Positions 7,343-42,378 of a DNA stretch of 64,000 bases are shown here, in pieces. The notes under the pieces were generated by a model. The model did not search any database. It was not told the DNA's origin and saw nothing but the letters and a program-made list of their open reading frames with translations. Within the stretch, counting starts at the first letter, position 1. Each line of letters opens with the position of its first letter. The translations under genes were made by a program, and so were the position numbers. The stretch is from Scilla litardierei (lineage: Eukaryota > Streptophyta > Magnoliopsida > Asparagales > Asparagaceae), in the NCBI GenBank assembly GCA_030789695.1, contig CM061142.1, positions 160,334,391 to 160,398,390 of the forward strand, in the 5' to 3' direction.

Positions 7343-9240
7343 TGTTGGTAGCAACGATCTATGAACTTCGTGTTTGATGATAACAAACGTGTGTGAACGT
7401 TTTTAACGTGATGTGTTAAGTGTTTCAGGAACGGCGAACGTGCGACTCTTTCACGGAAAGGCTTGGTTAATGTGCAAAGGAGAAATAGTCCACTAAGGAG
7501 AGAAGAGTCACATTAGGATCCCAATGGAAAGGTGTCTTCTAATCTTATAACATATCACCAACTCCCAAGCACTAAGCCAACAAAGAGAGCTGCTGATTTT
7601 CTTTAATCTCATTATCTTTGCATTACATTGGTGATTTAATAAATAAAAAAAAGAGGCCCAAGTTTCGTTTTTTTTGTTAGCCAAAATTCAAGAGAGGGCT
7701 GGCCCCTGTTCTTCATAATGGGGTAGGGTTTATTGGTTTCAAGACAGCCGAAATATCAAAGGGCAAACAAAAGGGCACAAATTGATTTGAGAGTGCAGCC
7801 GCAAGCAACAAAGAAAAGAAAGAGAATTTCGAAAGGGTCAGCCGCAAAAATCGTTGTTGAAATAAATCCCCTGTGTGCCGAAATTTGAGAGGAGGCTGCG
7901 CAAGTTCAAAAACACATTTTCCCCTAAGAAAATAAATACAACCTCAGAGCCGCAGGTTTCAAAAAGCAAGAGAGAGGCAAACAAAAACCCTAACCTATTA
8001 TTTCTAATTCCCCAAAAGGAGCCGGCTGCCAAAAATTTCTAAACCAAAAAAAAATCTTTTAAGAAGTCTGCCACTTGTTTTTAAAAGAGATGTGCACAGC
8101 CGAACAAATATAGAAAAAGGCATCTTTTTTTTCTTTTCATCTTGAATCAAATAAAAAAAGGGGTGATCAAATCAAACAGGCGCAATTCACAGGGCTTCGT
8201 TTTGTTTGGTTTTTGATTGCAAGCCGTATTGAAAAGGATAGAGGCGATTCTTCATTTTAATTGGTTTTTAGAGCAGCTCCTTTTTTAATACCCCAAGAGC
8301 CGGCCCTGTGCTTCATCTTCAAAACAATTAGAAGAGCCGCAATCTTTAATCACCCAGGGCGAATTGTTTTTTTGTGGCAGCCGAGGGGCCGCACAGTATT
8401 GTATTCTTAGAGGGAGTTCTTCGTTTTTAATTCCCAAGCGCTGCACAAAGCTTTTCTTTGAAAACAACACAGGGCCGCACAAATTGGACAAAGGGGAGCC
8501 GCAGCCGAAATTCCAAGCACAGGGAATTTTCTTTGCTTCTCTTGCAATTCACAAGCCTGCCAAAGTTTTGATTGACTTTCTTTTTTTGGCAGCCGAAATT
8601 TTTTTTTTGCCTTTCCTTTTTGGTTGACTGCTGCAACATGTTTTTTTGATACAGGAGGCAAGCTGTTGAATGTCAGTTTGAGGCAGAATGCATTAAATCA
8701 ATTGTTTCAACCTTTGGTGGAAGGCGCTAGTTTCATCGAGAGGGGAGCCGAACTATTGAGGGGACATCAGAGACAACATCTACGTCAGATGATGACGAGG
8801 ACATCGCCGCTACACAAACTGAGATTCCTAAACTCTATTTATCATTATTTTGTGTAGTTGTTGTGGCAGATCCACGTAGGGGAAACTTTACCTTCTGTGT
8901 TACTTTTGGGGACCTGACGACTTGGGAGTCGTCGCGGAGGGAGAGCATCTGACTAGATTGATAGTGTAGAGCACGTGGTGTGCGTACGAGCTAGGTGAGA
9001 GTAGATTTGGGATCTTGACTCATTGTAGCTGTACTTGATTACATATCTATCTAGTAGTTGCTTTCGGGGGCTGGAGTAGGTCGTGGGGACGACCGAACCA
9101 GGGTATATCTGTGCGTATTTTGTGATTGCTATTTTATTACCATGTCTGTGCCTATAACTGCGTGGGATTGTTCGTGGGTTGCACAAATATTTTTATTAGC
9201 CTATTCACCCCCCACTCTAGGCTACGATCCAGATCCAACA
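7343..9240 (+). repeat. 5' LTR of the Sirevirus-like element (1898 bp)
   Basis: TGTTGG...CCAACA. It is nearly identical to 12582-14498 apart from scattered single changes and an 18-bp indel (near 8791, versus 14031-14055). GCCGCA and AGCCG motifs recur throughout. No coding frame of note. Confidence 0.92.
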
Positions 9241-9242
9241 AG

Positions 9243-9257
9243 TGGTATCAGAGCCAG
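9243..9257 (+). other. Primer-binding site for initiator-Met tRNA
   Basis: TGGTATCAGAGCCAG, two bases after the LTR, is complementary to the 3' end of plant tRNA-iMet, the standard primer of plant copia elements. Confidence 0.92.
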
Positions 9258-12581: not shown

Positions 12582-14498
12582 TGTTGGTAGCAACGATCTA
12601 TGAACTTCGTGTTTGATGATAACAAACGTGTGTGAACGTTTTTAACGTGATGTGTTAAGTGTTTCAGGAACGGCGAACGTGCGACTCTTTCACGGAAAGG
12701 CTTGGTTAATGTGCAAAGGAGAAATAGTCCACTAAGGAGAGAAGAGTCACATTAGGATCCCAATGGAAAGGTGTCTTCTAATCTTATAACATATCACCAA
12801 CTCCCAAGCACTAAGCCAACAAAGAGAGCTGCTGATTTTCTTTAATCTCATTATCTTTGCATTACATTGGTGATTTAATAAATAAAAAAAAGAGGCCCAA
12901 GTTTCGTTTTTTTTGTTAGCCAAAATTCAAGAGAGGGCCGGCCCCTGTTCTTCATAATGGGGTAGGGTTTATTGGTTTCAAGACAGCCGAAATATCAAAG
13001 GGCAAACAAAAGGGCACAAATTGATTTGAGAGTGCAGCCGCAAGCAACAAAGAAAAGAAAGAGAATTTCGAAAGGGTCAGCCGCAAAAATCGTTGTTGAA
13101 ATAAATCCCCTGTGTGCCGAAATTTGAGAGGAGGCTGCGCAAGTTCAAAAACACATTTTCCCCTAAGAAAATAAATACAACCCCAGAGCCGCAGGTTTCA
13201 AAAAGCAAGAGAGAGGCAAACAAAAACCCTAACCTATTATTTCTAATTCCCCAAAAGGAGCCGGTTGCCAAAAATTTCTAAACCAAAAAAAAATCTTTTA
13301 AGAAGTCTGCCACTTGTTTTTAAAAGAGATGTGCACAGCCGCACAAATATAAAAAAAGGCATCTTTTTTTTTCTTTTCATCTTGAATCAAATAAAAAAAG
13401 GGGTGATCAAATCAAACAGGCGCAATTCACAGGGCTTCGTTTTGTTTGGTTTTTGATTGCAAGCCGTATTGAAAAGGAGAGAGGCGATTCTTCATTTTAA
13501 TTGGTTTTTAGAGCAGCTCCTTTTTTAATACCCCAAGAGCCGGCCATGTGCTTCATCTTCAAAATAATTAGAAGAGCCGCAATCTTTAATCACCCAGGGC
13601 GAATTGTTTTTTTGTAGCAGCCGAGGGGCCGCACAGTATTGTATTCTTAGAGGGAGTTCTTCGTTTTTAATTCCCAAGCGCTGCACAAAGCTTTTCTTTG
13701 AAAACAACACAGGGCCGCACAAATTGGACAAAGGGGAGCAGCAGCCGAAATTCCAAGCACATGGAGTTTTCTTTGCTTCTCTTGCAAATCAAAAGCCTGC
13801 CAAAGTTTTGATTGACTTTCTTTTTTTTGGCAGCCGAAATTTTTGTTTTGCCTTTCCTTTTTGGTTGACTATTGCAACATGTTTTTTTAATACAGGAGGC
13901 AAGCTGTTGAATGTCAGTTTGAGGCAGAATGCATTAAATCAATTGTTTCAACCTTTGGTGGAAGGCGCTAGTTTCATCGAGAGGGGAGCCGAACTATTGA
14001 GGGGACATCAGAGACAACATCTACGTCAGACGAGATCTGACCCGTGCCGATTGACGAGGACATCGCCGCTACACAAACTGAGATTCCTAAACTCTATTTA
14101 TCATTATTTTGTGTACTTGTTGTGGTAGATCCACGTAGGAGAAACTTTACCTTCTGTGTTACTTTTGGGGACCTGACGACTTGGGAGTCGTCACGGAGGG
14201 AGAGCATCTGACTAGATTGATAGTGTAGAGCACGTGGTGTGCGTACGAGCTAGGTGAGAGTAGATTTGGGATCTTGACTCATTGTAGCTGTACTTGATTA
14301 CATATCTATCTAGTAGTTGCTTTCGGGGGCTGGAGTATGTCGTGGGGACGACCGAACCAGGGTATATCTGTGCGTATTTTGTGATTGCTATTTTATTGCC
14401 CTGTCTGTGCCTATAACTGCGTGGGATTGTTCGTGGGTTGCACGAATATTTTTATTAGCCTATTCACCACCCCTCTAGGCTACGATCTAGATCCAACA
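12582..14498 (+). repeat. 3' LTR of the Sirevirus-like element (1917 bp)
   Basis: Matches 7343-9240, directly after the polypurine tract AAAAGGGGGAGAT. It carries an 18-bp insertion near 14031-14055 (GAGATCTGACCCGTGCCGAT region). Confidence 0.92.
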
Positions 14499-14503
14499 TA
14501 GTC
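14499..14503. repeat. Target site duplication TAGTC (right) of the Sirevirus-like element
   Basis: Identical to 7338-7342; element A's LTR resumes here. Confidence 0.9.
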
Positions 14504-20741: not shown

Positions 20742-20979
20742 GGTTGGCTCAGCGATAAGGGTGTTGATCGCCTCGAGACGCGGTACGGTTCAGGAAGCGG
20801 TTCAGCACGGGACGAGGTGCGGCTCGGGACGTAGTTCGGCTTAGGAGAAGCGACATGGGTGCCAAAGAAATGTTGCTGAAAACAATGCTTCGTATTCTAC
20901 AGAAACGACGTGAAATGTCAGTAGTTTAAATATTCATGCGTTTATGACTTGCAAATGTTAGATAGATCTATTCTTAGGG
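20742..20979. other. Spacer between elements A and C
   Basis: About 240 bp without a coding frame. Once C is removed it is contiguous with 42384 onward, so it may be interior sequence of the gypsy remnant G. The first part has repeated CGGTTC/CGGGAC motifs. No gene seen. Confidence 0.5.
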
Positions 20980-20984
20980 GTTGG
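20980..20984. repeat. Target site duplication GTTGG (left) of element C
   Basis: GTTGG precedes the LTR and recurs at 42379-42383. Confidence 0.9.
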
Positions 20985-21347
20985 TGATCGCGCCCCGGAT
21001 ACACGTCCCGGGACGACGGTTGTAGTTTTACCGCAAGCGCACGGTATGGTGGCGAGCGGGTATCGAACACAGGGAGGACGAATGACCGTGCTTGCTCCTG
21101 ATCAACCTGGCTATTTAGGAACAGAGATAATTGCCTTGGGCGATCCTGTCACAATCGTCAGACAAATTTGCGAAATATCAAATCAAATAAAGAACGTCTA
21201 GGGAAAGGGGAATCCCCACTACTCACCGTATTTCATAAATGTGGTTCACCGGTATCGAAATCGCTAGAATGAGAATTTGGATGAACTAGTTGCAACTAAA
21301 TGTGGAACCAAGCTCACGCTCTCGCGCTGTTGCCGGTCTATAGCTAT

Positions 21348-21651
21348 CCTAGGTTTGGGTCCAATCTCTTGCAAACCCTAGCCTAGGGAAGCTAGCATTA
21401 GGATCAACATCATCGTCCAATTGCGCACCGAGCCCAATCTCTTGCAAACTCGGTCCACAATCTAAATTAGGATAGTTCCTACCCGTCCAATCTCTTGCAA
21501 ACGGGTATCGGCACGGAATTGCAACCGGAGGTCCTAGTATCGGTCCAATCTCTTGCAAACCGATACTTCGAAAATCCGACTCCAACCCAATTCGGATTTC
21601 TAGGGCTTCCTATCAAATTGGGATCCAATCTCTTGCAAATCCCAATTGATA
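21348..21651 (-). repeat. Array of five stem-loops with one shared 14-nt loop and five different stems (left LTR of C)
   Basis: The plus strand loop is CCAATCTCTTGCAA at 21361, 21434, 21487, 21545 and 21625. Flanking arms pair each time: CCTAGGTTTGGGT with ACCCTAGCCTAGG (13 bp, one wobble, one mismatch); ACCGAG with CTCGGT; TACCCGT with ACGGGTA; AGTATCGGT with ACCGATACT; AATTGGGAT with ATCCCAATT (plus 4 bp after a bulge). In element sense the loop RNA is UUGCAAGAGAUUGG. The array lies about 390-700 nt downstream of the TATA-like box, so it should be transcribed into the leader. Unknown function. Confidence 0.92.
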
Positions 21652-22037
21652 TGAATACCTAGCTATCCGTAGTAATTCGATCCCAATCTAATCCCTAATA
21701 ACAATCCTAGCTCAATTTCTACCAATTCAACACAAATAGGAAATAGGGCTTGTAGGGTTCATCCCCACGCCCCGAGACGTGGAGACTACTCACAAATCAT
21801 AGCAATAGCACAAAAATAATCAATGAAATAGGCAATGGAATTCATCACAACAATGATATAAACAATAAAAATAGAGTTTTTGGGGAAGAGAAATGCAAAC
21901 CAATGTAGATCTTCAATTAATCCAACAAAAATCCAAGTTTTTCTCTTCTCCAATCACAATTAATAAAGCTAAAAACTAGACTCAAAAAGCTGCAAAAAAT
22001 CTGAGAGATAGCCCCCAAAACTAGGGTAAAAACAGAG

Positions 22038-22047
22038 CTTAAATAGC
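22038..22047 (-). promoter_or_regulatory. TATA-like box of the element C LTR promoter
   Basis: On the minus strand GGGGCTATTTAAGCTC, 84 bp downstream of the last CTCGGCCGAG palindrome. Inferred from sequence only. Confidence 0.5.
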
Positions 22048-22130
22048 CCCAAAAATCGTCTAAAAATCCTGACCAAAACGCCCCTGCACAGCCTGTTTTC
22101 CGCAAATTTCGCTACAGGCAGCGCATCGCA

Positions 22131-22507
22131 CTCGGCCGAGTGACAAAAGTCGCTCGGCCGAGTGAAAACCCTGTCATTTTCCAGTAAGTCGTGGGCTTCA
22201 GGGGTCTTCAGTTCGGGGGCGGCTCGGCCGAGTGAGTTGTCGTCACTCGGCCGATGGCTTCACTTCACTCGGGCGGACGGGATTTACCACTCGGCCGAGT
22301 GGGTCTTCTGAAGCTCAGGTGGCCGAAAAACAGAAACTTCGATATTTTGAAGGGGCTTCGTCTGGGCGCCACTCGGGCGGACGTGGTATCGTCACTCGGC
22401 CGATGTGGTCTCCGTCGCTCGGCCGAGTACACATGGAAATCGTGTCTGAACGGGTCGGCCGAGCAGTGTCTCGCTGGTTGGCCGAGCGACTCCTCCACTC
22501 GGCCGAG
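22131..22507 (-). promoter_or_regulatory. CTCGGCCGAG palindrome cluster upstream of the LTR TATA-like box
   Basis: Exact CTCGGCCGAG at 22131, 22153, 22223, 22290, 22418 and 22498, most within CACTCGGCCGAGTG, plus near-matches (for example at 22245, 22395, 22454 and 22480). The same cluster is in the right LTR (33378-33754). Confidence 0.85.
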
Positions 22508-22804
22508 TGGGACACAAAAAATGCCCAATCTGATTGTTTTGGCCTCCTCGTCGCTCCTGCGACGTCCATTCTTCTTCCGCTCCTCTCCAACAGCAAAATA
22601 CCCCTCGGGGAGGTCGTCGGTGGCCGTCTAGATTGCGCGCATCTCGAGATCACTCCTAATCGCGCCAAATCACCTGAAATGCGACAAAAACAACAAATCG
22701 TGAAAAGCATCGCAATATCGTCGATATATCGTGAAAAACATGATTTGGGCGATCAAAATGGCATGCAAACATGCGGGAAAAGGGTGTAAAATAAGGAGTG
22801 ATCA

Positions 22805-24758
22805 AAATCCCCCAAGCTTGCCTCTTACTCGTCCTCGAGGAAGATAAGTAAAAAAGCGAACCCGGTGGATTCGGAAAACGAAAACGGCGAAAAACGAAAA
22901 AAAATGAAAAACGAAGAAGAATGAAAACGAAATGAAAATAAAGAAAGAAAGAAGCGAAGAGGAAGGATGCTAGATCATTTTCTCAGGACGTGGGTTTCAC
23001 TTACTCTTATAGCATGCACCGAGTGAGAAATACATGTCAAAGAATCTCATTCTGATATCATAGTAGAATAGTGCAAGTAGAAAATAGAAAACCCACGAAC
23101 AACGGTATAATCATGAAAAACGGAATGATTTTAAAATTAACATCGCCTGAATCATCTAAAGCGGTATACAAATCTCAGATCACACACTTTTCAATTGAAC
23201 GCTTTCTATCTGGAGTATAAGAGTATCACATCATAGAATAGAGAGAATAGAAAAGTATGGATTTCATGAAATGAATGCTAGGCTTAGATTTCTGGATTTC
23301 GTAAAGCTAGAAACAATCTCACCGAGTATAGAATATTACTTAGCCTAGGTTGTCGTGCAATGTCAAGTAGTCGCTCTCTCACACATCAATGGATCTCCTC
23401 CCCCAAGCTTATCTATAAGCGTGGTGGCACAAAAATATTTACATCCCCATTTTTATATGGCTCCAAAGGCAAAGAAGAGAAAGAAGAAAGAAAGTAAGCG
23501 AGATGGGATCTTTTATTGAGGATTTTTCCTCTTTTCTCTCTTTTCTCTTTTTTTTTCTTTTTTTTTTTCATATATACAATGATCCCAACTCAAAGAGAGA
23601 TAATGATATACAAGAATGTTCTTCTCTCTTTTATTATATCTTTTTTTTTGGAATAAGAGATTTGGAGCTAGGAATTAATAGCGGGGGAAATGCCATAAAA
23701 TAGAATCACTAAGGGGAGATTCACCAATGATTTTTAAAAGTAGAGAAATGATGTTCAAGATTTGTGGAGAAAGAAATAAATATAACTCTCGGCTCACTCT
23801 ATAAGACATGCACGACAACTTCAGCAGGGTAATCTAATCTACTCAGTTTCGATCACAAAAAAGCTAACTAATCCAGATATATCATAGCTAATCATCATTC
23901 AATCATCCGGAAGTGAAGTGTACAATTCATGCATATAGAAGTGATATAGGAAAAGAAATCAGTACTCCAGATATAGGCATTCAATGCGTGAATCTTGGTG
24001 TGTTTTCTGTGATAGCATACATATAAATATTCAGGCTCAGCTAATAATAAAACTTCATCCATTTTCATGTGGAAAAAGTGTGGGTTACTATTTCTAAATG
24101 CAAAGCAAGTCATAGCATATGATATCGGAAATGAAATCTAAGACACGACAAATATAGCATGCATATAGAATAAGCTAACTCCACGTAGACATCATCACAG
24201 AAAATTCATCTCTAGCATGAGATGAAAAAGGAAAGAAGTAAAGATAAAAGGAAAATAGAACTATGCAATGCGGCACACAGGAAAATAAGAAAAACGTGAT
24301 GCATGGCAAGATAAAGGAAAAATAATGAAAAATAGGTGCAAAAGTGAAAAACGGTGTGAAAAACTGAAAATAAAGGTGGCTAAACGAAAAAGAAAGTGAG
24401 GACTCACTCCCCCAAGCTAAACGGCACAGTGTCCTCAATGTGCAAAGTGTGGCACACAGAGAGACAAGTAATGAGAGGTGCAAGTGAGGATGCATGCATG
24501 ATGGAAAGAAAAAAGATAATAAAAGGAAAAATAAAGAAGTGAAAATATGATGCGGATATGATGCATGCACAGATATGAGTGATACGAGTGTATATGTGTC
24601 ACCGAAAAGCTCTCCCTCTCTCCCAAAAAAGATATATAGAGATACGGCATAATGAGAAACCCAAAATAAGTGAGGGGAGGGGGGTGGACAAAAAGACATC
24701 AGGACCCAGCAGAAACAGGCAGCACAACGGCAAAAGGAATCGATGGCATCAAGGGTGC
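22805..24758 (-). other. Element C 3' untranslated region with repeated polypurine tracts
   Basis: About 1.9 kb, AT-rich, without credible genes. The true tract abuts the LTR (22806-22820, sense AAGCTTGGGGGATT). Near-copies lie at 23399-23411 (ATAAGCTTGGGGGAGG in sense) and 24407-24418 (TAGCTTGGGGGAGTG). Long T/C-rich runs occur near 23520-23660. The minus frame 24175-24699 is low-complexity and not credible. Confidence 0.7.
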
Positions 24759-26959
24759 CTAGGAAGGTGGTGCTGCGCCGTCTCCGTCCTGAGGCGGAGG
24801 TGGTGGTGGTGGTGGTGTGGGCTGCTGAGCTGGGGTGAGGGTGTAAGTGGAAGCAGGTCTAGTGTGTGTGGAAGTGTGTGTGGGAACCTGCTGGGTGGGT
24901 GGGGGTACGCGTGGGAGACGCTCCAGAACCTGTGTAAGGCAGTAGTGGATCTGGGGGATCAGCTCGAAGCGTCCAGCCATCACAGAGACGGTGGAGGACA
25001 GGGTCCTAAGGTCTCCTCTAAGACCACTCACCGCCACCTCAAGAGCACGTATGCTCTGCAGTACAGTGTCGGGTGGGGGTGGTGCAGAGGGACGCACCTG
25101 TCGGGGCTGCGAAGGGCGAGGCTGGCGTACGCGAGTGGAGTATGTAACGGGCTCAGCAGGGAAGGGGACGAAGGGTGCCGCGCCTGGAAATGTGGTCCGG
25201 GCCTCGGTGGAGGCCGGGGCGGGCGGTGAGAAGTGGAGGCAGCGGCAGCAAAAGAAGCGTGCAAAGGTGGCAACGAGGTGGCAAGAGAGGTCAGTGGCCC
25301 AGAAGTGTGGACAGACGCCACGACGCTCTCGGAGAATACGGCGGCTGTGGAGACAGAGGACTCTACCGCTGGGGTGGAAGTGTGTGTACCAAAAGGCGCA
25401 ATCCCAGCGGAGATCATGCTAGCCATGGTCTCCACGACCGCGGCGAACGAGGGCTCTCCACTCTCAACAAAGGTCTGCGGGCGCTCGGGGAGTGCAGAGC
25501 AAAGAGGCTCGACAGACAGAGGGCCGGAGGTGGCAGCGGGAGTGGTGGGGACAGCCTCGGAAGTGGTGACAGTGGTGGAAGTGGGCTCAGCAAGAGTACT
25601 CTCGACACTGGCAGAGGTGGGGACAGAAGTGTCAGGAGCAGCAGAAACGTCAGGAACAGGCTGAGGGGCCACAGGGTCGACAGGGTCGGCAGCAGGCTCG
25701 GCAGGGTGTGCAGCAGGGTCTGCGGGGGCAGCCTGGGCAGCGTGGGCAGCGTGGGCCTGCTCGGCCTCCTCGGCCTTGAGCACGTAGGCGGCGGGGATGA
25801 GGACATCCATCGCCGGAATCCAGTCAACGTGGGCTGGTGCAATCAGAGTCTGAGCAGGGCTCGGGAGAATCATGTAATCGGCCCCATAGGGGCCGTGCAA
25901 CCAGACCCAGTGACGCTCACCATGCGGACGAAGCATCTTCATCCGGGCCATAACGTCTATCGACAGAAAAGTGGGGCCCGGGACGCGTCGCAAGTCGTCG
26001 GGGAAGTCCTCGCCGGTCATAAGAGCCAGTAAGGTAATCAGGCCGCCGCAGCATATCGGTGAGCGAGCGCCCACCGACATAATGATACGGTCTAGAAACC
26101 AAGCCCCAATGTCGATCACGGCGGCGGGGACAAGCTCGTGTCCATCCCTAGATAGAGCTCTGGGACGTGTCATCGCATAGAGCATGTAGAGCTCTGGCGT
26201 AGACATCGTGCCCGGCTCATATCTGGCCAGAAAGGTAGTCGCCATAAGGCGTTGGGCAATACGTAGGCAGGGGTGGACAATGGCCGAGGCCTTGGCCCTA
26301 CTAGGGTCAAAGGCGGCGTGGTGGCCTGTAATCCGGGCCCAGAAGGCGCCGGCGTCGAAAGAAGGTGGGGGGATGTGGGTAGGGCCGTAACCGCGATCGG
26401 CACCGGGGACGGCGGGCCATGAGAAAAATGCTCTCATCATATCGAGAGTGACCTGGCACTCTCGATCCATGAACCGGAATGAGCATCCCTCATCGGTCCG
26501 GGCGATCGAACTCAAAACCTCAAGTGTCGGACGGGTAAAAGTATCCGTCGACACCTGAAGGAAGTCGCGCCAACCCACGTTGTCGTACAACGTGAGTATC
26601 CCCTCAAGTAACCCCAGGCGTCCTAGGTCAGCGAGGTGTGCAAACCTGGAGGGTACGATCGAGCGCTGGGAGATACGGTCGAAGACGGTGCGGTGTGCAT
26701 CGTCTCGGAACGTAATCCCGAGCGGCCCAACCAGTGGAGCCGGTGGTGGTGGCTGTGGATCGGCGGGGAGAGGCTGTGCGGGCTGTGGGTGCACTGCAGG
26801 CTGTGCGGGGTGTGCGGGGCCTGCAGGCTGTGCTGGGTGGACGGCGTGTGTGGGGGAAGGAGGAGGAGACTCTTCCGCCTTGTGGGCGGGGCCGGCGTCA
26901 TCCGACCTCTTCCGCTTAGCAGAAGGTCTCCTCGTCCGAGGCCGTGTCCGGGGCGGCAT
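24759..26959 (-). CDS. ATHILA-like 3' ORF of element C (env position), frameshifted near its C-terminus
   Basis: The frame is open from an ATG at 26959 to 25028; reading further upstream needs a non-ATG start, so I take 26959. The N-terminus has a basic nuclear-localisation-type patch (RPRTRRPSAKRKR) and a Pro/Ala/His-rich repeat stretch. The core (about residues 90-390) includes GWRDFLQVSTDTFTRPTLEV, ASAIVHPCLRIAQRLMATTF and MSTPELYMLYAM, which I recognise as like the ATHILA ORF-1 family (PF03078). A second Ala/Pro-rich stretch follows. Near 25190-25240 the coding signal moves to another frame, where 24759-25097 encodes a helical segment (TVLQSIRALEVAVSGLRGDL) and a Pro-rich tail. One indel therefore separates body and tail. 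No transmembrane segment is evident, so an envelope role is not supported. Function unknown. Confidence 0.75.
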
Positions 26960-27500
26960 ATCGGCCCCGAGCGCGCCGAAAAGTGAAAAAGTGCGGCGTG
27001 TGCAAAAAGAGTGGAAAGAGTGTACCAAAACACGTCGCGAGTGCTAAGCGGTGGAAGCGTGCGAAGTCCGCGCCTCCACGAAGTCCGAAACAGCCCGTAG
27101 GAGCTCCCCTGGCCTCCCCTAAGCTCCAATAAACAACCTGCGCGTGAAAAAGCGATATCAGCGAGTAATAATCAAAATGTATGGAGCAATAGGGGTATAA
27201 TGGATAGATATAGAAATTGATTTGGGTTAGGGGGGCGTTTAGCACATGGATCCTCAAAAAAATACACGAAAAGAGGAGAAAACGGTGAAAATAAGCGAAC
27301 CGGAGGTGATCGGAGACGGGGCTGCCGGCGGCGACTCGGGCGGGGTCCGGCGACGGTCGGCCGGTGGTGGCAGGCCGAGCGGCGGCGCGCGCGGGCTTGG
27401 TCGGGCGAGTGGGGGTGAGAACGAAGCGAGTTCGGGCGAGGGTAGGCGAGGGGGCGCGGGCGGATTTGGGAATTTTCGATTTCGAAATCCGCGCCCCCTT
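26960..27500 (-). other. GC-rich leader of the element C 3' ORF
   Basis: About 540 bp between the internal TATA-like box and the ATG at 26959. GC-rich, with repeated GGGCGAG/GGCGGC motifs. No credible separate gene. Confidence 0.5.
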
Positions 27501-28179: not shown

Positions 28180-31100
28180 TCAATGCGGGATGTTTGGTGC
28201 ATATGAGATGCACCCGTCAAACTTGCCGGGGAGCGCGCTTGGATTCGAACGTGGCGGCGTAGCGTTCTCCCGCGGTGGTCTCCTATCTCGAATAGTGTTG
28301 GTGGGAGGTTCCCCCAAGCTAGCATTTGCCCCGGTCAACGGCTTAACCGGCGATGCCGATTTCCGTGCCGGCGGAGCTTTCTTTGGAGACTTTAATTTCG
28401 AGAGCTTGCAGAGCTCTCGAATCCTCGCGACATCAGCGTCGCCTTCATCTTCATCAGCGGAGAAGTCGGGGGAATCGTCTTCAATCTTTTCATCTTGGCC
28501 TAAATCCGGGCCTTCATCAAATTCTTCATCAAAAAGGGCACCAATTGAGTGAGGAATCGCCTCCTCTATCACCTCATCAAGGAGGTCCATGTAATCATCC
28601 GACCGCTCTTTAAGCAAATATACTCTATTGGTTTCGCCCGTCGGGATCCCCTCGGAATAGTGCTTGAGCCTTTGGCCATTTACTTTGAATGTGGTACCAT
28701 CCTTGCTTTCCAACTCGAAAGCTCCTCCCGGTTGTATGTGCTTGATGGTGAAAGGTCCCGACCAACGTGACCTCAACTTACCGGGAAATAGTCGGAGTCG
28801 GGAATTGTAGAGCAAGACCTTGTCTCCCAGCTTGAAGTCCGTGACAGTTATGCGGGCATCGTGGAAAATCTTGGTCCTTTCCTTGTAAATTCTCGAGCTC
28901 TCATAGGCGTCTCTCCTTATTTCATCAAGTTCGTTGATGTCCAAGAGTCGCCTCACCGCCGCACTCTTATAATCGTAGTTAAAGGTCTTGATGGCCCAAT
29001 ATGCGTGGTGTTCCAACTCTACCGGCAAGTGGCAAGCCTTCCCATAAACTAGGCGGAACGGTGTGGTACCGATGGGGGTGCGAAAGGCCGTGCGATAGGC
29101 CCATAGAGCATCGTTTAACTTCATTGACCAATCCTTTCTAGACCGATCCACGGTTTTCTCGAGAATTTGCTTGATTTCTCTATTTGAGACTTCTACTTGG
29201 CCGCTTGTCTGGGGGTGATAAGCCATCCCAACTCTATGATTTACCCCGTACTTCTTTAGCATGGCTTCAAACTTGTTCTCTATGAAGTGGCTTCCCCCGT
29301 CGCTTATCAAGGTACGCGGCACTCCAAAGCGCGGAAAGATATTTTGCTTGAAGAATTTGGAGACGACCCTTGCATCATTAGTAGGGGTGGCAATAGCTTC
29401 CACCCATTTGGAGACATAGTCAACGGCCAATAGGATGTACTTGTTGCCATTGCTCGACGGAAAAGGCCCCATGAAGTCTACTCCCCAACAATCAAAAAGC
29501 TCAATCTCCTGGATGGGTCTCATCGGCATCTCATTGCGCTTGGAGATATTCCCGGTCCGTTGACATCTATCGCAACCCTTCACAAAAGCGTGGGTGTCTT
29601 TAAACATTGTGGGCCAGAAGAATCCGCTCTGCAAGATCTTAGCAGTTGTTTTAGAGGCGGCATGATGTCCCCCGCATGGTAGACCGTGGCAATGCAAGAT
29701 GATAGACGTTGCCTCCTCTTTAGAAACACACCTACGAATGACACTATCTTTGCATATCTTGAAAAGGTAAGGATCTTCCCAAAAATAGCTACGGACCTCA
29801 TGCATAAATCTCCTCTTTTGTTGCGTGGACATCCCATGCAGTTTGATTCCGCACGCCAAGTAGTTGACGAAGTCCGCGTACCAAGGTACTTCCTCGGCCC
29901 TTACCGCATATAGCCTCTCATCAACAAATGTGTCGTCAATAGGTAAGCTCTCATCCTCCTTGTCGCGAATGAGCCTAGATAAATGATCCGCCACGACATT
30001 GTCTGTACCCTTCTTATCTCTGATCTCTAGGTCGAATTCTTGCAACAAGAGTATCCACCTAATCAACCGGGGTTTGGCCTCCTTCTTGTTTAAAAGATAC
30101 TTCAATGCCACATGGTCGGTGTGGACAATCACCCTGGAACCGAGGAGGTAGGAGCGAAACTTCTCTATGGAATAGACGACCGCTAGAAGCTCCTTTTCGG
30201 TAGTTGTGTAGTTTTTCTGCGCGTCATCCAATGTCTTGCTTGCGTAGTATATCGCATGAAGCTTCCTATCTTTCCTTTGTCCCAATACCGCTCCAATGGC
30301 TTGGTCGCTAGCATCGCACATTAGCTCAAAAGGGAGGCTCCAATCCGGCGGTTGAATGATGGGCGCTGAGACTAGCGCTTCCTTCAAGGTGTTGAAAGCT
30401 TGCAAGCATTCTCCTGAAAAGTCAAAAGGAACATCTTTAGCGAGTAAGGAAGTAAGTGGTCGGGCAATCGAGGCGAAATCCTTAATGAAGCGGCGGTAAA
30501 ACCCCGCGTGACCAAGGAAGCCTCTAATGCCCTTGACATTAATAGGAGGAGGAAGTTTTTCGATTACCTCAATTTTAGCTTTATCTACCTCGATTCCTCT
30601 TGAGGAAACAAGATGTCCGAGAACTATACCTTCCGTGACCATGAAGTGACACTTCTCCCAATTGAGAGTGAGATTGTTTTGTTGGCACCTTTTTAGGACT
30701 TTAGTGAGATTTTCCAAGCAAGAGTCAAACTCACTTCCATAAACCGAGAAATCATCCATAAAAACTTCCATAATATTTTCATTATAATCGGAAAATATGG
30801 ATGTCATACATCTTTGAAAAGTGGCGGGAGCATTACAAAGGCCGAACGGCATCCTACGGTATGCGTAGGTGCCATAGGGACAAGTGAAAGTTGTCTTTTC
30901 TTGGTCATCTTCGTGCAAAGGGATTTGGAAGAAACCCGAATACCCGTCTAGATAGCAAAAGTATTTATGGTTCGCGAGGCGTTCAAGCATTTGATCGATG
31001 AATGGCAATGGGTAATGGTCCTTTCGGGTGGCTTTATTGAGTCTCCTATAGTCAATGCACATTCGCCATCCCGTGACAGTGCGCGTGGATATTGGCTCAC

Positions 31101-32061
31101 CTTTGTCATTTTTTATGACAGTCATCCCTCCTTTCTTGGGGACGACGTGGACGGGGCTAACCCATCTACTGTCAGAGATAGGATAAATTATACCGGCTTC
31201 AAGCAATTTCAGGATTTCCTTTTTAACCACCTCCTTCATGTTCGGGTTCAACCGCCTTTGAGGCTCTATGGAGGTGGCTTCGGCATCCTCCAAATGGATC
31301 CGATGTGTGCAAAGCCTAGGGCTTATTCCTTTTAGATCGGAAATAGTGTATCCCAAGACATCTTTGTGGCTCCTAAGGACGTCTAGGAGTTTTTCAAGTT
31401 GATCTTGTGTGAGGTGGGAATTGACTATCACCGGAAAAGTCAATTTATTACCCAAAAAGGCATACCTTAGATTCGGCGGTAATTGTTTAAGCTCTACCTG
31501 AGGTGGCGCTGCTCCTTCCGCTTTATCAGCTCGCATGAATTCGGCTTCTTCCTCGTCATCCGGGTTTAGCTCATGTTCAGGTGGCATGCTTTCTTGTGAC
31601 GAGTCGGACTCGCTACTTAGTGAGGATGAGGCATCGAAGTAGGCGCCCTCTGATTCAGTGCTAGCATCGCCAAAACCTTCACTCTGCTCCAGTTCGTACC
31701 TGGAATCAAGAAACACATCAGACGATTCATAAAAACAAGAGTGAGCGTCATAAAGTGTAACACCCGGAATGTCGGTTTGCTCGAAGGGTTTTTCGGGAGC
31801 ATAGTGCTCTTCGACATTTGCTCTATTGTCTTCGAAATACAATTTGTCGTCGACCACGTCAACTCTGACATTGCCTCCGATAGTCCCTTCCGGGGAGATT
31901 TGGTCCATCACAAAGCTAGCAAATAGTTGTTCGTCGGGGTCCTTGATATTGATAGCAAATGCTCCGGTAGTGTGGACCTCGTCGACAAGCTCCTTAAGGA
32001 GGTCTGTGAAGGAGACATAGTCTTCTCGACTGAGTTCTATTGTTGGCGTTGCATCCCCCAT
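28180..32061 (-). CDS. pol: Element C Pol: reverse transcriptase, RNase H, integrase (about 1293 aa, intact, no Gag/protease)
   Basis: I chose the ATG at 32061 because the eight upstream codons open with TTG. The first 190 or so residues are acidic and unlike Gag or protease. RT follows ([13 protein letters not shown], then [43 protein letters not shown] and catalytic FMDDFSVYG), then RNase H ([36 protein letters not shown]). Integrase has its zinc-binding His/Cys block ([20 protein letters not shown]) and the DDE residues in [22 protein letters not shown] and [13 protein letters not shown]. The C-terminal tail is acidic then Lys/Pro-rich. YLDGYSG is typical of Athila. The frame has no break. 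Gag must come from elsewhere. Confidence 0.95.
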
Positions 32062-32207
32062 CCTCCCTGTTAAGATCTTATGCAAAATACGGGGAGAATA
32101 TGCAAATAGGGCTACGAAGGAAGTTAGGATAAGATAGAGAGGGAAGTAAAGGAGGAAAGTAAGAAGAAATAACCGGGTGGTCGGTGCCGAGCACCGTCAA
32201 AATGCCC
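32062..32207 (-). other. Short leader of element C where gag should be
   Basis: Only about 146 bp separate the primer-binding site from the pol ATG. Athila relatives carry gag and protease here (about 2 kb or more). No gag motif present. Confidence 0.75.
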
Positions 32208-32225
32208 TCCCCGGCAACGGCGCCA
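32208..32225 (-). other. Primer-binding site for tRNA-Asp (element C)
   Basis: The plus strand TCCCCGGCAACGGCGCCA equals the 3' end of plant tRNA-Asp including CCA. It lies 6 bp from the LTR edge at 32232. This primer is usual for Athila/Tat elements. Confidence 0.9.
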
Positions 32226-32594
32226 AAAACTTGATCGCGCCCCGGATACACGTCCCGGGACGACGGTTGTAGTTTTACCGCAAGCGCACGGTATGGTGGC
32301 GAGCGGGTATCGAACACAGGGAGGACGAATGACCGTGCTTGCTCCTGATCAACCTGGCTATTTAGGAACAGAGATAATTGCCTTGGGCGATCCTGTCACA
32401 ATCGTCAGACAAATTTGCGAAATATCAAATCAAATAAAGAACGTCTAGGGAAAGGGGAATCCCCACTACTCACCGTATTTCATAAATGTGGTTCACCGGT
32501 ATCGAAATCGCTAGAATGAGAATTTGGATGAACTAGTTGCAACTAAATGTGGAACCAAGCTCACGCTCTCGCGCTGTTGCCGGTCTATAGCTAT

Positions 32595-32898
32595 CCTAGG
32601 TTTGGGTCCAATCTCTTGCAAACCCTAGCCTAGGGAAGCTAGCATTAGGATCAACATCATCGTCCAATTGCGCACCGAGCCCAATCTCTTGCAAACTCGG
32701 TCCACAATCTAAATTAGGATAGTTCCTACCCGTCCAATCTCTTGCAAACGGGTATCGGCACGGAATTGCAACCGGAGGTCCTAGTATCGGTCCAATCTCT
32801 TGCAAACCGATACTTCGAAAATCCGACTCCAACCCAATTCGGATTTCTAGGGCTTCCTATCAAATTGGGATCCAATCTCTTGCAAATCCCAATTGATA
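32595..32898 (-). repeat. Five stem-loop array with shared 14-nt loop (right LTR of C)
   Basis: Copy of 21348-21651. The loop CCAATCTCTTGCAA occurs at 32608, 32681, 32734, 32792 and 32872 with the same five stems. Confidence 0.92.
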
Positions 32899-33377
32899 TG
32901 AATACCTAGCTATCCGTAGTAATTCGATCCCAATCTAATCCCTAATAACAATCCTAGCTCAATTTCTACCAATTCAACACAAATAGGAAATAGGGCTTGT
33001 AGGGTTCATCCCCACGCCCCGAGACGTGGAGACTACTCACAAATCATAGCAATAGCACAAAAATAATCAATGAAATAGGCAATGGAATTCATCACAACAA
33101 TGATATAAACAATAAAAATAGAGTTTTTGGGGAAGAGAAATGCAAACCAATGTAGATCTTCAATTAATCCAACAAAAATCCAAGTTTTTCTCTTCTCCAA
33201 TCACAATTAATAAAGCTAAAAACTAGACTCAAAAAGCTGCAAAAAATCTGAGAGATAGCCCCCAAAACTAGGGTAAAAACAGAGCTTAAATAGCCCCAAA
33301 AATCGTCTAAAAATCCTGACCAAAACGCCCCTGCACAGCCTGTTTTCCGCAAATTTCGCTACAGGCAGCGCATCGCA

Positions 33378-33754
33378 CTCGGCCGAGTGACAAAAGTCGC
33401 TCGGCCGAGTGAAAACCCTGTCATTTTCCAGTAAGTCGTGGGCTTCAGGGGTCTTCAGTTCGGGGGCGGCTCGGCCGAGTGAGTTGTCGTCACTCGGCCG
33501 ATGGCTTCACTTCACTCGGGCGGACGGGATTTACCACTCGGCCGAGTGGGTCTTCTGAAGCTCAGGTGGCCGAAAAACAGAAACTTCGATATTTTGAAGG
33601 GGCTTCGTCTGGGCGCCACTCGGGCGGACGTGGTATCGTCACTCGGCCGATGTGGTCTCCGTCGCTCGGCCGAGTACACATGGAAATCGTGTCTGAACGG
33701 GTCGGCCGAGCAGTGTCTCGCTGGTCGGCCGAGTGGCTCCTCCACTCGGCCGAG
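33378..33754 (-). promoter_or_regulatory. CTCGGCCGAG palindrome cluster (right LTR of C)
   Basis: Copy of 22131-22507. Near 33727-33740 the two LTRs differ (CGGCCGAGTGG here, TGGCCGAGCGA in the left copy). Confidence 0.85.
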
Positions 33755-33801
33755 TGGGACACAAAAAATGCCCAATCTGATTGTTTTGGCCTCCTCGTCG
33801 C

Positions 33802-33806
33802 TCCTG
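33802..33806. repeat. Target site duplication TCCTG (left) of element D
   Basis: TCCTG here and TCATG at 42129-42133. The intact site in the left LTR of C reads CTCCTGCGACG, so one copy has since changed by one base. Confidence 0.8.
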
Positions 33807-36659
33807 TGTAACGACCCGCTCTCCAGGATACCCGGGAAGTACGAATCCGTCCCAAGTATTCCTAGATCAACGAGTGTTACGTAGAAAAAGAGAAAGGAAG
33901 AGAACAAAAGAATGCTGCAGGTACTACGCACGTGCTGGGAAGTACAAGTAAAACTCCATCACAGATAAAAACACTGAGAAAATAACAAAAGTACAATATT
34001 CCATTTTATTGATACATTGACACATCTTATACATACACCAACATCTTCATTTTCACGACTCTAAGTACAAAGGTCCACCCGAAAAGAAACACCAAAAGTA
34101 CAAGTCTCTCATCATACCCCTCACCACCCAATACTACAACAGATCACCAACTCCAAAGCTCCAGCCGCTATCTCCAACCTCCAACTCACATGACCTGAAA
34201 GTCAACGGGGACACGTCAACGCGTGACCCAGTAGAAACTCCTAACACTCTAGTAGAACCCAATTTTAGAACTGGTCTACCTATCTAGGGAGGGTGGCCTA
34301 ACAAGTAAAGCTCTCAGGACATAAAAGTAATCACAACACGATGTATAAGCATCAAAGAAGAACTTGTGAACACGCATAAGTAACCATGTTATAACATGCA
34401 AGTGCTGAAGGTAAGTGGGAGAACATAATAACATGCAAGTACTGGACATTTATAATAAACAATGGAATGGATCAGCATGAGTTAACAACATTAACTTAAC
34501 AGAGAAACAAGTAACCATGGGATAACAATATTTATAATTAAAAGACAATTGCTTTAAGTTATTCATTCTTATGTTTGGAAACCCGTGTAAACCGTCGGAC
34601 GCTAAGGAGGCGGACTTCACCCAGGGTGGGTGAAAAAGTGGTACCCTAACCAGCAACACGAGCACCGGAGGGGGCCTCTCGCAACTCTATGCCCGAACGG
34701 GGCAAGGCACTAGAGCGAGACCTGCTCGGTTTTTCTGTGGGACAAACGGAGTAAACCATCAATTACCGTCATGGTGCATCACGGGTACACCAGCGGCCTC
34801 TCCAACCCTTTCAACTCGCCCTTTCGGGAGTGATACAGCGGGTGAGAAATCATAATTCATACGTCCGCTCCTTAACTCCTAAAGTTTACCCGTTTTCCCC
34901 CAAACCCGTGTCACCCTCCTTTAAGAGGACTTAGTCATTTTCATGAAACATAACATCTTCCATTTCTTTTCTTTCCACAGTTCATCACATATTTGGGACA
35001 TGCATCGCCTTGTGCATTCCCTTTCTCATTTCTCATAATATACCTGAAACGTATAACCATATTCACATCATCATCATCATCATCATCATCTCAAGTAAAG
35101 AATTGCATGGAATATCATCACAAACTCATCGTTATGAACATACTAATGTGAGCACAAAAGCATAAACAAATTGAACTTAAACATTATTGACATAACGAAT
35201 ATTTCATGAACCATCTGCATAATTACATGTATCAAGAGCATGTCATTGAGAACATGATTAGCACAAACAAACTTAACTTCAAACATAACTACACCATGAT
35301 AAGTACTAAGCAAAATTAGCATATGAATCTGTCAAAACTGTTACAGCAGAAAGAATATCACTTTTAGCCTATCTACAGTCAGAATTGGTGTCTGGTCCCT
35401 TCACGAAATTTGTAGATATGGGTGTTTTCCTTTCACTGACCAATTTTCATAAGCTCAGTTGACATATGTGATTTATGGTGAATTTTCTCCTAACAGGTAT
35501 AATTTCAGAATTCTGAACCAGAAACTGAGTTCAGTTCAAGTCCATTTTTCTACAAGTTACACACCGAATTAAAATCTAAAAAAATCACAGGTTGAAGATC
35601 TTGAAGTCAGCTTTCCAACGGCACTAAGAACATCCAATTTCATTAAGTGTGCATGGAGTTCTACTCGTTTTACTGAAAGGTGTCAAAACTGTCTAAAAAC
35701 AGACCAGTTTTAGAAACTGAATTTTTACTCTAGTTTTCAGTCCGAATTTGCAAAACTTGTAAACGTGAAAGTTATTAAGGACTACAATATGAGTAACATA
35801 TATTTTTTTCATGCATTTCTATGTAGCCAATTAAGTGCAGAAAGCTAACAAAGTTTCAGTCAATTCTGTGTAAATTCCAGAATTTTGTTCATCTAGCTAA
35901 TTCCGCATAACATATTAACATAAATGGAATTCCTAGTCCTAAAACTAAATCCTACTATAAGTGAAAGGAATTTCTACCTTGCAAGTCCTCCAAATAATTT
36001 CTTTGGCCCTTCTTAGTCCTTGATGGAGAGCCTCCTAGCCTCCTTCTTCAAGCTCCAAATTGGTCTCTAAAATTTGAATTTTTGAGGTGATTTTTGGATG
36101 AATTTGAAGCTAGAATGGTAGAGAGAATTTTTGGGCTCTTAGTAGTTGAAGGGGAGTATTTTGGGATGAAGTTTTTGGTGGAGGAATGAAGAAACAAGGG
36201 AGAAAAGAGGGGAGGAATTTTTTTGGGCTGGTTTGAGGGAGCAAGGGAGTGAATGAGAGAGAGTGAAATTTTCTTGTTTTTGTGTTTTTCTTGCCTAAAT
36301 TTTTGTACCCCTAAATTCCTCTCCACCCTTCATCAAGTCAAGATGAGTGCCATGTGTTTTCTCTTTAATTCTTAGGATGACACCTCACTTAGTGAGTTGT
36401 CATGGTTATAAAATTTTAGATTTTGTATTTTTAAGAAAATAGAAATACATGAAGAAATACCATATACACTCTAAATACAAGTATTCATCCAAATACTCTT
36501 ATTTACTAAATTCAAATGATGAGTTTAAACTCTTTTAAAAATAATTCCTACACCAAAATAATTAAATAAAAATACATGCATACTCCCAAAAATCATACCC
36601 ACGTATCTACGCCCAAAAATACCTACATATATACGTATTTAGGGATACAGGGTATTACA
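33807..36659 (-). repeat. Element D left LTR (2853 bp)
   Basis: Near-identical to 39276-42128. Differences seen near 33886, 34215, 35073-35075 and 35486. Contains a (CAT)n stretch near 35070-35090. No coding frame above about 92 residues; the frame at 36048-36326 is low-complexity. Confidence 0.95.
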
Positions 36660-39275
36660 TTCTACCCACCTTAAAAACAAAGTCCACCCTCGGACTTTCA
36701 TGCTAAGGGTCTGACATGAGATTAAATAGTAGAAGGGTCTCCCTACCCACGACATATGAATAACGCTATATGTTTATACAATACACCCATGTATACATGC
36801 ACGATACTATATATTATACAGTTATATGTACGCATTCCTATCCAAGGATATATGAATGCTCCTAGACAAATCATCATAACACGTACTTAGTACTATACAT
36901 AAGAATTCACACAAGTATATGCTCAAGAATATATGTTACTACATGATCACACATATAGGTATACCTAGATACATACATCAACACCCGTAATCTCACATAC
37001 TCCTTATAATTACATATTACATGCTCACATGGTATATAAACACACATCATTCATAAGTCATAAGGCTAGTATACTTATACATATACACACCTATATACAT
37101 ACCTAGATACATCCAAGTAAAGACCAAGTATACATTCATTTATAGATACACATACCAATATAAACATTACATCCAATATGCATACAACCTTACTAACATA
37201 CATACGTAAATATGTATATCCAATTTTAATACACTTATGGCAGATAGTCATACACCAATACTTTACACACCGATATGATGCACCACATATCCAGTGGGTA
37301 ACCATACACAAACATATCACTTAAGCACGCAAGTATAAACACCTTCAACTATATAGACAATTATATATAATAGCTCTCACACAAGTATGCATACAATACA
37401 TATCACTATAATAAATAGTCTTGACAGTATGTATGTCTAGTATATCAATCTTCTAGTACACTCTCACTTTATATATGAAAGTATACATTCATATGTATTC
37501 ATATCAAATATTCATTCACGTAAGTCTATATTTATCCACCTATATACGGTACAAATATACTTACATACAAGCCGTCGGCGTAACATATATTCAATGCAGT
37601 ATACATACACACAACACTATGTAGAAATAATAGCACAAGAATTATATCAATACAGTACATGTATCTATTTATACACACTTGTACCCACAAGACATATCCA
37701 TATATAAATCTCATTCACATGTTACACTCACATATTATCACATAATATATAAGTACACACCAATATTGTATAACTTGGCATACCTACTTATGTATGTCTA
37801 TACACACCATTTAGTAAGCCACTATATTTCACACACTACTTATACGCCTCCAATAGTAGCTATACTCATATATACATATCTCATTATATCAATTTACACA
37901 ACCATATTTCTAGTATACATACACATACACATCATCACATAGAGTCTCATATAACAATACCATCACACACAGATATTTATATAATGTCCATCCAACACTA
38001 GTGTAAGCGTATCCGCTTACAATCAGACAGGCAACCATATACATCTTTCGTATATGTATCAAATACACAACTTTAGTACACCTAGGGCATGCCCACTCAT
38101 ACTTGAATGGAAAACAAATATCCGCACATGGATTTACACAATCAGCATGTACAAATACATCACATATTACCAATACATCCGGTATACCGTATCTATACAT
38201 CGCCTATAGCTCAATCAACTATATCGGTCTATGATACACACTATAAATATATATACATACTTACTACTTACATCTCAATCAATACAATCACTCTATTGCA
38301 CCTACATCTGATAGTGCAACCACATACTAACACATATACTTATAATATCACATACTAACGTATAGTCACACATGTAGCTAAGGTAGTAGCATATACATGT
38401 ATGTATAGATACAGATATGCACATAAGTATAGCACACATATACATTCGACAACGGACATACAATACTTGTATATTCATATAAACACATAACCGCATACAC
38501 ATATAATTATTCCATGTATACCATCATACACTCCTATACATCCACAAGTACATCCACCCAGACGTACAAGCAACATCCATATACCAACACATACATCACG
38601 AATTTATTTATACACTAATATTTATACACACAAATACTCCATATATATAAACATCCCTCAGATATCCATATACAAATCATCTCCTTACATTCCTTAAATA
38701 TTTAATTCAGTATTTATACCTACAACTATACATAAAATCATATAGTCATCCACATACACTCAGATGTAGATAAAACATGTATTAGCACATATTTATATAT
38801 GACACACAATACTTCATTACACAGATAGTATGCCTCACACTTAGATTTACACATCATATATTATCTACTCCTTAATTCATATAAATAACATTTCTATACA
38901 TACACCTCATAGTTCGTCCATATACGAACACTTATACTATGAGTTATAAGAATACACACAAGTAGTCATACAAGTATCTATAATGCTGCTTACTTACAGA
39001 TATATCTATAGATACATGCCTATAGGAATACATGCCAATATGCACACAATACTAATATATCCATGCAAACACGTACCCATCCATACATATATGTATACAT
39101 ACAAACAACTACCCATGTTTACCCTCAAGAAGCTCTGTACATTGGGTTTCCTAATACCAGGGTTTTACCCTAAGGCTAATCACCTACCCACCTTAGGACA
39201 CAACTACCCTTATGGAGCATTACCCGCACTATCCTTACGCACGCCGCAGTGCGGAGACCTGCATGGGCCGCCAAC
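36660..39275 (-). other. Element D interior: CA/TA-rich low-complexity, no genes
   Basis: The left edge in element sense is AAGGTGGGTAGAA, a polypurine-like tract next to the LTR. From about 36780 to 39110 the plus strand is an irregular run of alternating ACATATA, TACACA and CATACA words with very little G. It is not a strict tandem repeat. Frames here (for example 37075-37320, 38302-38502) are Tyr/Cys/Ile-rich artefacts. 39115-39255 is ordinary sequence leading to the primer-binding site. Confidence 0.85.
39256..39273 (-). other. Primer-binding site resembling tRNA-Ile (element D)
   Basis: The plus strand GACCTGCATGGGCCGCCA differs by one base from the 18-nt site of element B and from tRNA-Ile(AAU) as I remember it (G for A before CCA). 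Two bases from the LTR. Confidence 0.75.
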
Positions 39276-42128: not shown

Positions 42129-42133
42129 TCATG
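42129..42133. repeat. Target site duplication TCATG (right) of element D
   Basis: Matches TCCTG at 33802-33806 at four of five bases. Confidence 0.8.
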
Positions 42134-42378
42134 CGACGTCCATTCTTCTTCCGCTCCTCTCCAACAGCAAAATACCCCTCGGGGAGGTCGTCGGTGGCCG
42201 TCTAGATTGCGCGCATCTCGAGATCACTCCTAATCGCGCCAAATCACCTGAAATGCGACAAAAACAACAAATCGTGAAAAGCATCGCAATATCGTCGATA
42301 TATCGTGAAAAACATGATTTGGGCGATCAAAATGGCATGCAAACATGCGGGAAAATGGTGTAAAATAAGGAGTGATCA
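42134..42378 (-). repeat. Element C right LTR, part 2
   Basis: Matches 22560-22804 and ends TGATCA. One difference seen near 42356. Confidence 0.93.

Follow-up and report, generated by a model that had tools for sequence, protein, structure and literature searches.

A covarying five-hairpin array in the LTR of a gag-less Athila derivative from Scilla litardierei, a candidate RNA packaging tag common to gag-protease and Pol elements

In retroviral packaging hairpins and in the coat-protein operators of RNA phages, the protein reads the loop and a bulge, the stem is largely free in sequence and several copies can cooperate. The array described here differs from them in that a plant LTR presents one tip in five tandem copies. 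Partners that encode only Gag have been described before, and so have parasites without gag. In barley, the RNA of the gag-defective Ty1/copia element BARE2 is packaged into BARE1 particles, and the packaging and dimerisation signals are conserved (PMC3735527). The present system is similar, judged from sequence alone, in that a gag-defective element has Gag-making relatives with shared cis signals, here gag-protease (gag-PR) elements with the same array and primer binding site (PBS). It is different in that BARE1 and BARE2 belong to the copia superfamily, no hairpin array is described in the available part of that account, and BARE1, on which BARE2 depends, has a Gag of its own (PMC3735527). 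Pol-less Athila elements of Arabidopsis keep gag under purifying selection (PMC2410132). According to the available part of that paper all potentially autonomous pol-bearing Athila copies have gag, unlike the pol elements viewed here, and the terms hairpin and LTR motif are absent from its main text (PMC2410132). In wheat, elements with Gag(-protease) alone are partnered with one that encodes the enzymes (RLG_Sabrina/WHAM with Wilma, Quinta with Cereba), and the PBS and LTR termini are common to Quinta and Cereba (PMC9744471, PMC11302176). In the accessible portions of these accounts the enzyme partner is complete (autonomous) and no RNA array is described (PMC9744471, PMC11302176), whereas the pol partner viewed here is without gag, and therefore dependence could be mutual.

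Repeated palindromic motifs are also known from the LTRs of plant Sireviruses, where, in the part of the report available, one palindrome is repeated per element upstream of the TATA box and is read as promoter DNA (PMC2829016). The array, in contrast, has variable stems downstream of a TATA-like box, which covary as RNA. A repeated palindrome of type CACTCGGCCGAGTG is observed at 22120-22510, upstream of the TATA-like box, and resembles the CGG-CCG repeated motifs of Sireviruses (PMC2829016). Neither a hairpin array nor a reciprocal Athila gag-PR/Pol split was among the matches listed in the openly licensed literature, in which the literal motif was also not found, and a search of 20900-22900 against Rfam gave nothing at E values of up to 1. 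The statement of the first-pass annotation that no described family is like this one is consistent with these results.

The window is the whole stretch of 64,000 nucleotides that was analysed (contig C13). Its host element has the following features.

20985..22804, minus strand: 3' LTR of the Athila-type element, with TG..CA ends and TSD GTTGG
22039..22045, minus strand: TATTTAA, a TATA-like box that precedes the array in element sense
25028..27043, minus strand: ORF with ATHILA ORF-1 domain (PF03078), envelope-like by position
28180..32196, minus strand: Pol ORF (RT, RNase H, integrase), which begins right after the PBS
32208..32225, minus strand: PBS of Athila type, TGGCGCCGTTGCCGGGGA, just after the 5' LTR
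32232-33806 plus about 42129-42378, minus strand: 5' LTR, split by a nested element
32595..32898, minus strand: five-hairpin array of the 5' LTR copy, with exact motif matches

The two LTR copies show 3 differences in 1575 shared positions. The PBS TGGCGCCGTTGCCGGGG after the LTR is one which we take to be of the tRNA-Asp type. Of the features of the Athila lineage (Ty3/gypsy), the PBS type, the RT-RNase H-integrase order and the ATHILA ORF-1 domain are present. A domain search found no gag or protease domain in either ORF, and the match of a sister gag-protease protein to the window interior is confined to its last 137 residues, a shared tail. The loss of gag proposed earlier is thus borne out for this copy, and by its sequence the window element is a gag-less Athila derivative. 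The element nested inside the 5' LTR (33807-42129) has direct repeats of 2854 bp that are 99.86% identical. Another pair of long direct repeats, 97.4% identical and possibly the LTRs of a second element, lies at 7343-9243 and 12582-14502; a hairpin scan of the window found no array there comparable to the five-hairpin one.

The motif CCAATCTCTTGCAA has five exact matches within 300 bp of the 3' LTR (starts 21361, 21434, 21487, 21545 and 21625), and a second set of five is found in the other LTR copy (32608-32885). With up to three mismatches, the window has 19 matches, where shuffling gives an expectation of 7.5 (100 shuffles, largest 14). Each copy is the tip of a hairpin.

21348..21387, minus strand: hairpin 1 (the last in element sense), 4+1+6 pairs interrupted by two mismatches, tip 21361-21374
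21419..21462, minus strand: hairpin 2, 7+7 pairs, wobbles included, flanking a mismatch, tip 21434-21447
21480..21507, minus strand: hairpin 3, 7 bp, tip 21487-21500
21536..21567, minus strand: hairpin 4, 9 bp in the window copy, tip 21545-21558
21611..21651, minus strand: hairpin 5 (the first in element sense), 9 bp and 4 bp separated by a 1-nt bulge (9+4 positions, counted with the one-base bulge), tip 21625-21638

The five stems are mutually unrelated in sequence and each is self-complementary, so the earlier description of five motif copies in 300 bp with complementary, unrelated flanks is confirmed by the exact matches and the flank pairing. Its further claim of perfect or near-perfect flanks holds in that pairing is present in all five, but the longest stem (13 positions) is broken by two mismatches. 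Because both the stems and the spacers differ, simple tandem duplication is rejected as the origin of the array. When the window was scanned for perfect stems of at least 5 bp around a repeated loop, the only 14-nt loops with more than two copies were AT runs and CCAATCTCTTGCAA. Two other stems are observed nearby. A sixth GAGA-capped stem (GCGC GAGA GCGU) is located just downstream of hairpin 1 in sense (21315-21328), variable among siblings and broken in some, and between hairpins 5 and 4 (21572-21599) an 8-bp stem carries another loop, of 12 nt.

The 14-nt "loop" is itself folded, with three base pairs below a GAGA (GNRA) tetraloop. The tip can be written as U-U-[UG bulge]-C-A-N-GAGA-N'-U-G-G, in which the UG bulge and the U1.G14 pair beneath the tip helix are RNAfold predictions. 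Two common tip forms, TTGCAAGAGATTGG and TTGCACGAGAGTGG, covary, with pair 6-11 being either A-U or C-G, which supports the three-pair helix beneath the GAGA loop. The motif occurs 167,774 times exactly in the 3.68-Gb host assembly (83,374 + 84,400; reversed control 5) and the second form TTGCACGAGAGTGG 32,129 times. Whole-genome counts of the top tip pair are A-U 167,774, C-G 32,129, C.U 247, A.G 304, G.U 450 and A.C 221; among the first four forms, the two matched ones make up 99.7% of copies. The same exchange is seen within single hairpins: the tip pair of hairpin 1 is A-U in 59, C-G in 25 and U.G in 3 of 87 sibling arrays, and that of hairpin 2 is C-G in 29, A-U in 4 and U.G in 1 of the 34 arrays whose choice did not depend on the C-G tip. 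The fixed 14-nt loop of the first description is therefore one shared motif in all five window copies, but it is a structured tip rather than a plain loop and it varies genome-wide (TTGCACGAGAGTGG). In viral contigs the 14-mer alone was met in at least 120 stretches, with one match in each of the 80 listed, as chance would give. A two-motif pattern had 0 matches in viral_contigs and genome_contigs, a 601-residue Pol piece had no relatives in viral_contigs, and the first 260 Pol residues gave 2323 candidates outside the host genome, none at E 0.001.

Sibling arrays were all fetched from the first 7.5 Mb of contig C1, 33 at first and then 54 via the second tip form. With one partial array (L186) dropped, the final set has 87 arrays, being 86 full siblings and the window. 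They were chosen by an exact tip of either form, and each array therefore has at least one hairpin whose tip was selected for; many arrays come in pairs from the two LTRs of a single insertion, so that not all are independent. The pairs were fixed from the window alone, and the tree was built from unpaired columns. Across the 87 arrays 95.9% of 6025 pair cells are kept paired, compared with 17-52% in slid controls. Stems differ between subfamilies yet remain paired. The arms of hairpin 3 are exactly TACCCGT/ACGGGTA in 22 of the 87 arrays and TATTCGT/ACGAATA in 30, and no chimera of these two arm pairs is found among them; one of the two possible chimeras was counted in the whole genome and has 10 copies there, the matched forms being counted in the 87 arrays only. 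Pair 4 of hairpin 4 is T-A in 50 arrays and C-G in 36 (n=87). Weak positions are also observed: hairpin 4 has an A.G mismatch at pair 7 in 45 of 87 arrays, pair 9 of hairpin 2 is often unpaired in this set, and pair 8 of hairpin 5 is a gapped column with letters in 37 of 87 arrays only. Siblings that keep the motif with unpaired stems had been named in advance as evidence against selected pairing; some copies and single pairs are indeed broken, alongside the 95.9% of cells that are kept.

Changes along the tree show when the pairing is maintained. Starting from a good pair, 68 changes keep and 20 break the pairing on internal (pre-insertion) branches, compared with 78 and 102 on terminal branches (Fisher p 1.3e-7). 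New G.U outnumber new A.C by 33:9 on internal branches and 57:50 on terminal ones (p 0.005). The first 34 arrays give the same picture, with keep:break ratios of 39:7 internal and 33:45 terminal. From the internal/terminal contrast and the G.U excess it follows that pairing was guarded on element-sense RNA during activity and decayed after insertion. Both-sided Watson-Crick differences at internal nodes are found at thirteen stem pairs, covering all five hairpins, and at two tip pairs, some of them at few nodes. In 1000 tree simulations, the fraction of good internal-node pairs (0.967) exceeds the null maximum of 0.938 and the number of pair-keeping changes (68) exceeds the null maximum of 48, while the 15 pairs with both-sided Watson-Crick swaps compare with a null mean of 7.9 and a maximum of 15. 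RNAalifold, given 34 arrays, predicts all five hairpins on the sense strand (-176 kcal/mol, compared with -122 kcal/mol for antisense). A strict per-pair test (G statistic with APC, tree null), which has little power on these arrays, finds 1 of 69 pairs significant, or 1 of the 18 variable on both sides; few single pairs are significant because the swaps fall on few deep branches. Covariation among aligned siblings is accordingly seen at two levels: the aggregate tests indicate a conserved RNA beyond phylogeny, but single pairs rarely pass tree correction (1/69). It is well supported in aggregate that the paired stems and the top tip pair are under selection in element-sense RNA, as had been suggested; compensatory changes, the internal/terminal contrast, G.U over A.C and the tip counts all bear this out.

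In element sense, the array is ordered downstream of the TATA-like box and upstream of the PBS. Of 33 siblings, 31 have TATTTAA or TATATA in the corresponding position, 282-330 nt upstream of the part in which the arrays are aligned, so that the position proposed from the window sequence holds in the window and in these siblings. If the TATA-like box is used, the array probably lies in the transcribed leader, before the PBS.

The array is carried by elements of different coding capacity. A PBS is present downstream within the fetched stretch in 42 of 87 oriented loci, followed by gag in 19, Pol in 6, an ORF type first seen in short elements in 9 and none of these in 8. From the 19 gag-first 5' LTRs, 18 were followed inward (L133/L145 as L155/L157, plus sixteen; L164 was left out), and L161, beside L152, is the nineteenth element followed. 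In L155, L157 and L161, whose interiors were read through, the protease is joined directly, at one junction, to the tail which in the Pol ORF comes after integrase, and RT or integrase was not found. The sixteen further gag elements were probed at the junction site with 1.7 kb each. Thirteen have this junction too, which L230 crosses by just 8 residues, and three are uninformative (L221, L225, L233), so that RT or integrase is absent at the junction in 16 of 16 informative gag elements (3 + 13). Elements with the protease fused in frame to the post-integrase tail (L155, L157, L161, L218-L232) are complementary to the pol-only element of the window. Conversely, no gag or protease is found in the whole interiors of the pol elements in the window, L154 and L156; in L147, L185, L209 and L214, viewed at the element start only, Pol comes right after the PBS. 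In all, the window element and six others begin with Pol at this place. A complete gag-pol copy with the array was not met in this small sample.

Gag-PR has dN/dS 0.08 at dS 1.3-1.9 (three pairs), near saturation, and Pol pairs have dN/dS 0.11-0.28. The shared junction at this dS suggests that gag-PR elements, apparently without RT and integrase of their own, have long been replicating under selection; spread by recombination could also account for the junction. Gag and pol elements are intermixed in the array tree. The closest classified array of a pol element is on a gag element in 5 of 7 cases (L142, L147, L185, L214 and the window), in a sample where gag elements outnumber pol elements and chance therefore favours gag-nearest arrays; that of L131 is on another pol element by a hair, and that of L209 on a third-type element. 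Such intermixing would also arise by recombination in mixed particles. The third type (L158-L160, L171; L165 is assigned to it on a 32-residue match) has the array as well, with several members about 5.5-6 kb between arrays, while L187 has 10 kb to the next array and is not "short". Part of its ORF resembles the N-terminal region of the Pol ORF, and by eye it may hold a gag remnant too.

We propose that the array is a cis-acting RNA element in the probable leader, whose five tips are jointly bound by the Gag of gag-PR elements, leading to packaging of all array RNAs, and we give this reading slightly better than an even chance. Five tandem stems of free sequence would present one tip in the element RNA, and Gag from gag-PR elements would bind the five tips together. 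Each array-bearing RNA would then be packaged, the gag-PR and Pol halves would meet in one particle, and enzymes translated from the Pol half could reach that same particle. Several features fit a multivalent tag that Gag would read for packaging: a constant tip on stems of free sequence, its five copies, pairing in sense RNA, a probable place in the leader and presence on complementary elements. Five equal sites on stems that can be exchanged would also suit a capsid protein that binds avidly as it assembles. The earlier idea of a foreign Gag now has a concrete candidate in the gag-PR sisters with the same array and PBS. Against packaging stand the 20 of 88 internal-branch changes from a good pair that break pairing, the low yield of the strict per-pair test and the weak pairs of hairpins 4 and 2. 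A more tentative extension, possible though short of evenly likely, is an obligately two-part retrotransposon with a Gag-protease-only set and an RT-integrase-only set, neither complete, for which the array would be the shared address label that collects both RNAs and, via RNA, the Pol enzymes no longer fused to Gag.

A structured leader could equally serve export or translation. Recognised by a plant protein, the tips might promote export or translation of the long unspliced RNA, an explanation that we consider unlikely but worth keeping in sight. In the CTE of type D retroviruses, two identical loops recruit the export receptor, and a repeated identical recognition loop on variable stems is the same design. 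The element has also kept a second frame (ATHILA ORF-1), and 22020-20985 contains 7 ATGs in 1036 nt of sense sequence, which would hinder scanning if this stretch is leader. Sharing of the array by complementary gag and pol elements is not explained by a host factor alone, though common LTR descent would explain it.

Direct RNA-RNA contacts, either genome dimerisation by kissing tips or docking of the GNRA tetraloop to a receptor, are improbable. Retroviral dimer signals do lie in leaders, and the window tip holds the palindrome UUGCAA as well as a GNRA loop. However, the common form UUGCAC (32,129 copies), carried by hairpin 2 in 29 of 34 first-sample arrays, is no palindrome, which disfavours palindrome-kissing dimerisation; the dimerisation role once suggested is weakened, as the loop is not conserved as a self-complementary one. 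A role in DNA, as cruciform-extruding inverted repeats or as a repeated factor-binding site in the LTR, seems very unlikely: the inverted repeats are strong and the motif contains CCAAT on the plus strand, but neither cruciforms nor factor sites predict the strand-specific bias of G.U over A.C (33:9 internal; 450:221 for the tip pair genome-wide), and the DNA cruciform is disfavoured by it. The least probable reading by far, namely palindromes that arose by chance or through an artefact of fold-back copying and multiplied along with a successful family without having a function, could draw on the descent of copies from few ancestors and the single pair significant alone, but pairs are kept before and lost after insertion, tip pairs are 99.7% matched and the aggregate null is rejected.

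Little is known about how plant LTR retrotransposons choose their genomic RNA. The array is a compact, covariation-supported RNA element with a defined tip; its motif has roughly 170,000 copies and double mutants occur naturally, which makes binding and packaging directly testable. As it is common to elements of complementary coding capacity, it could also be used to study what keeps the parts of a split genome together.
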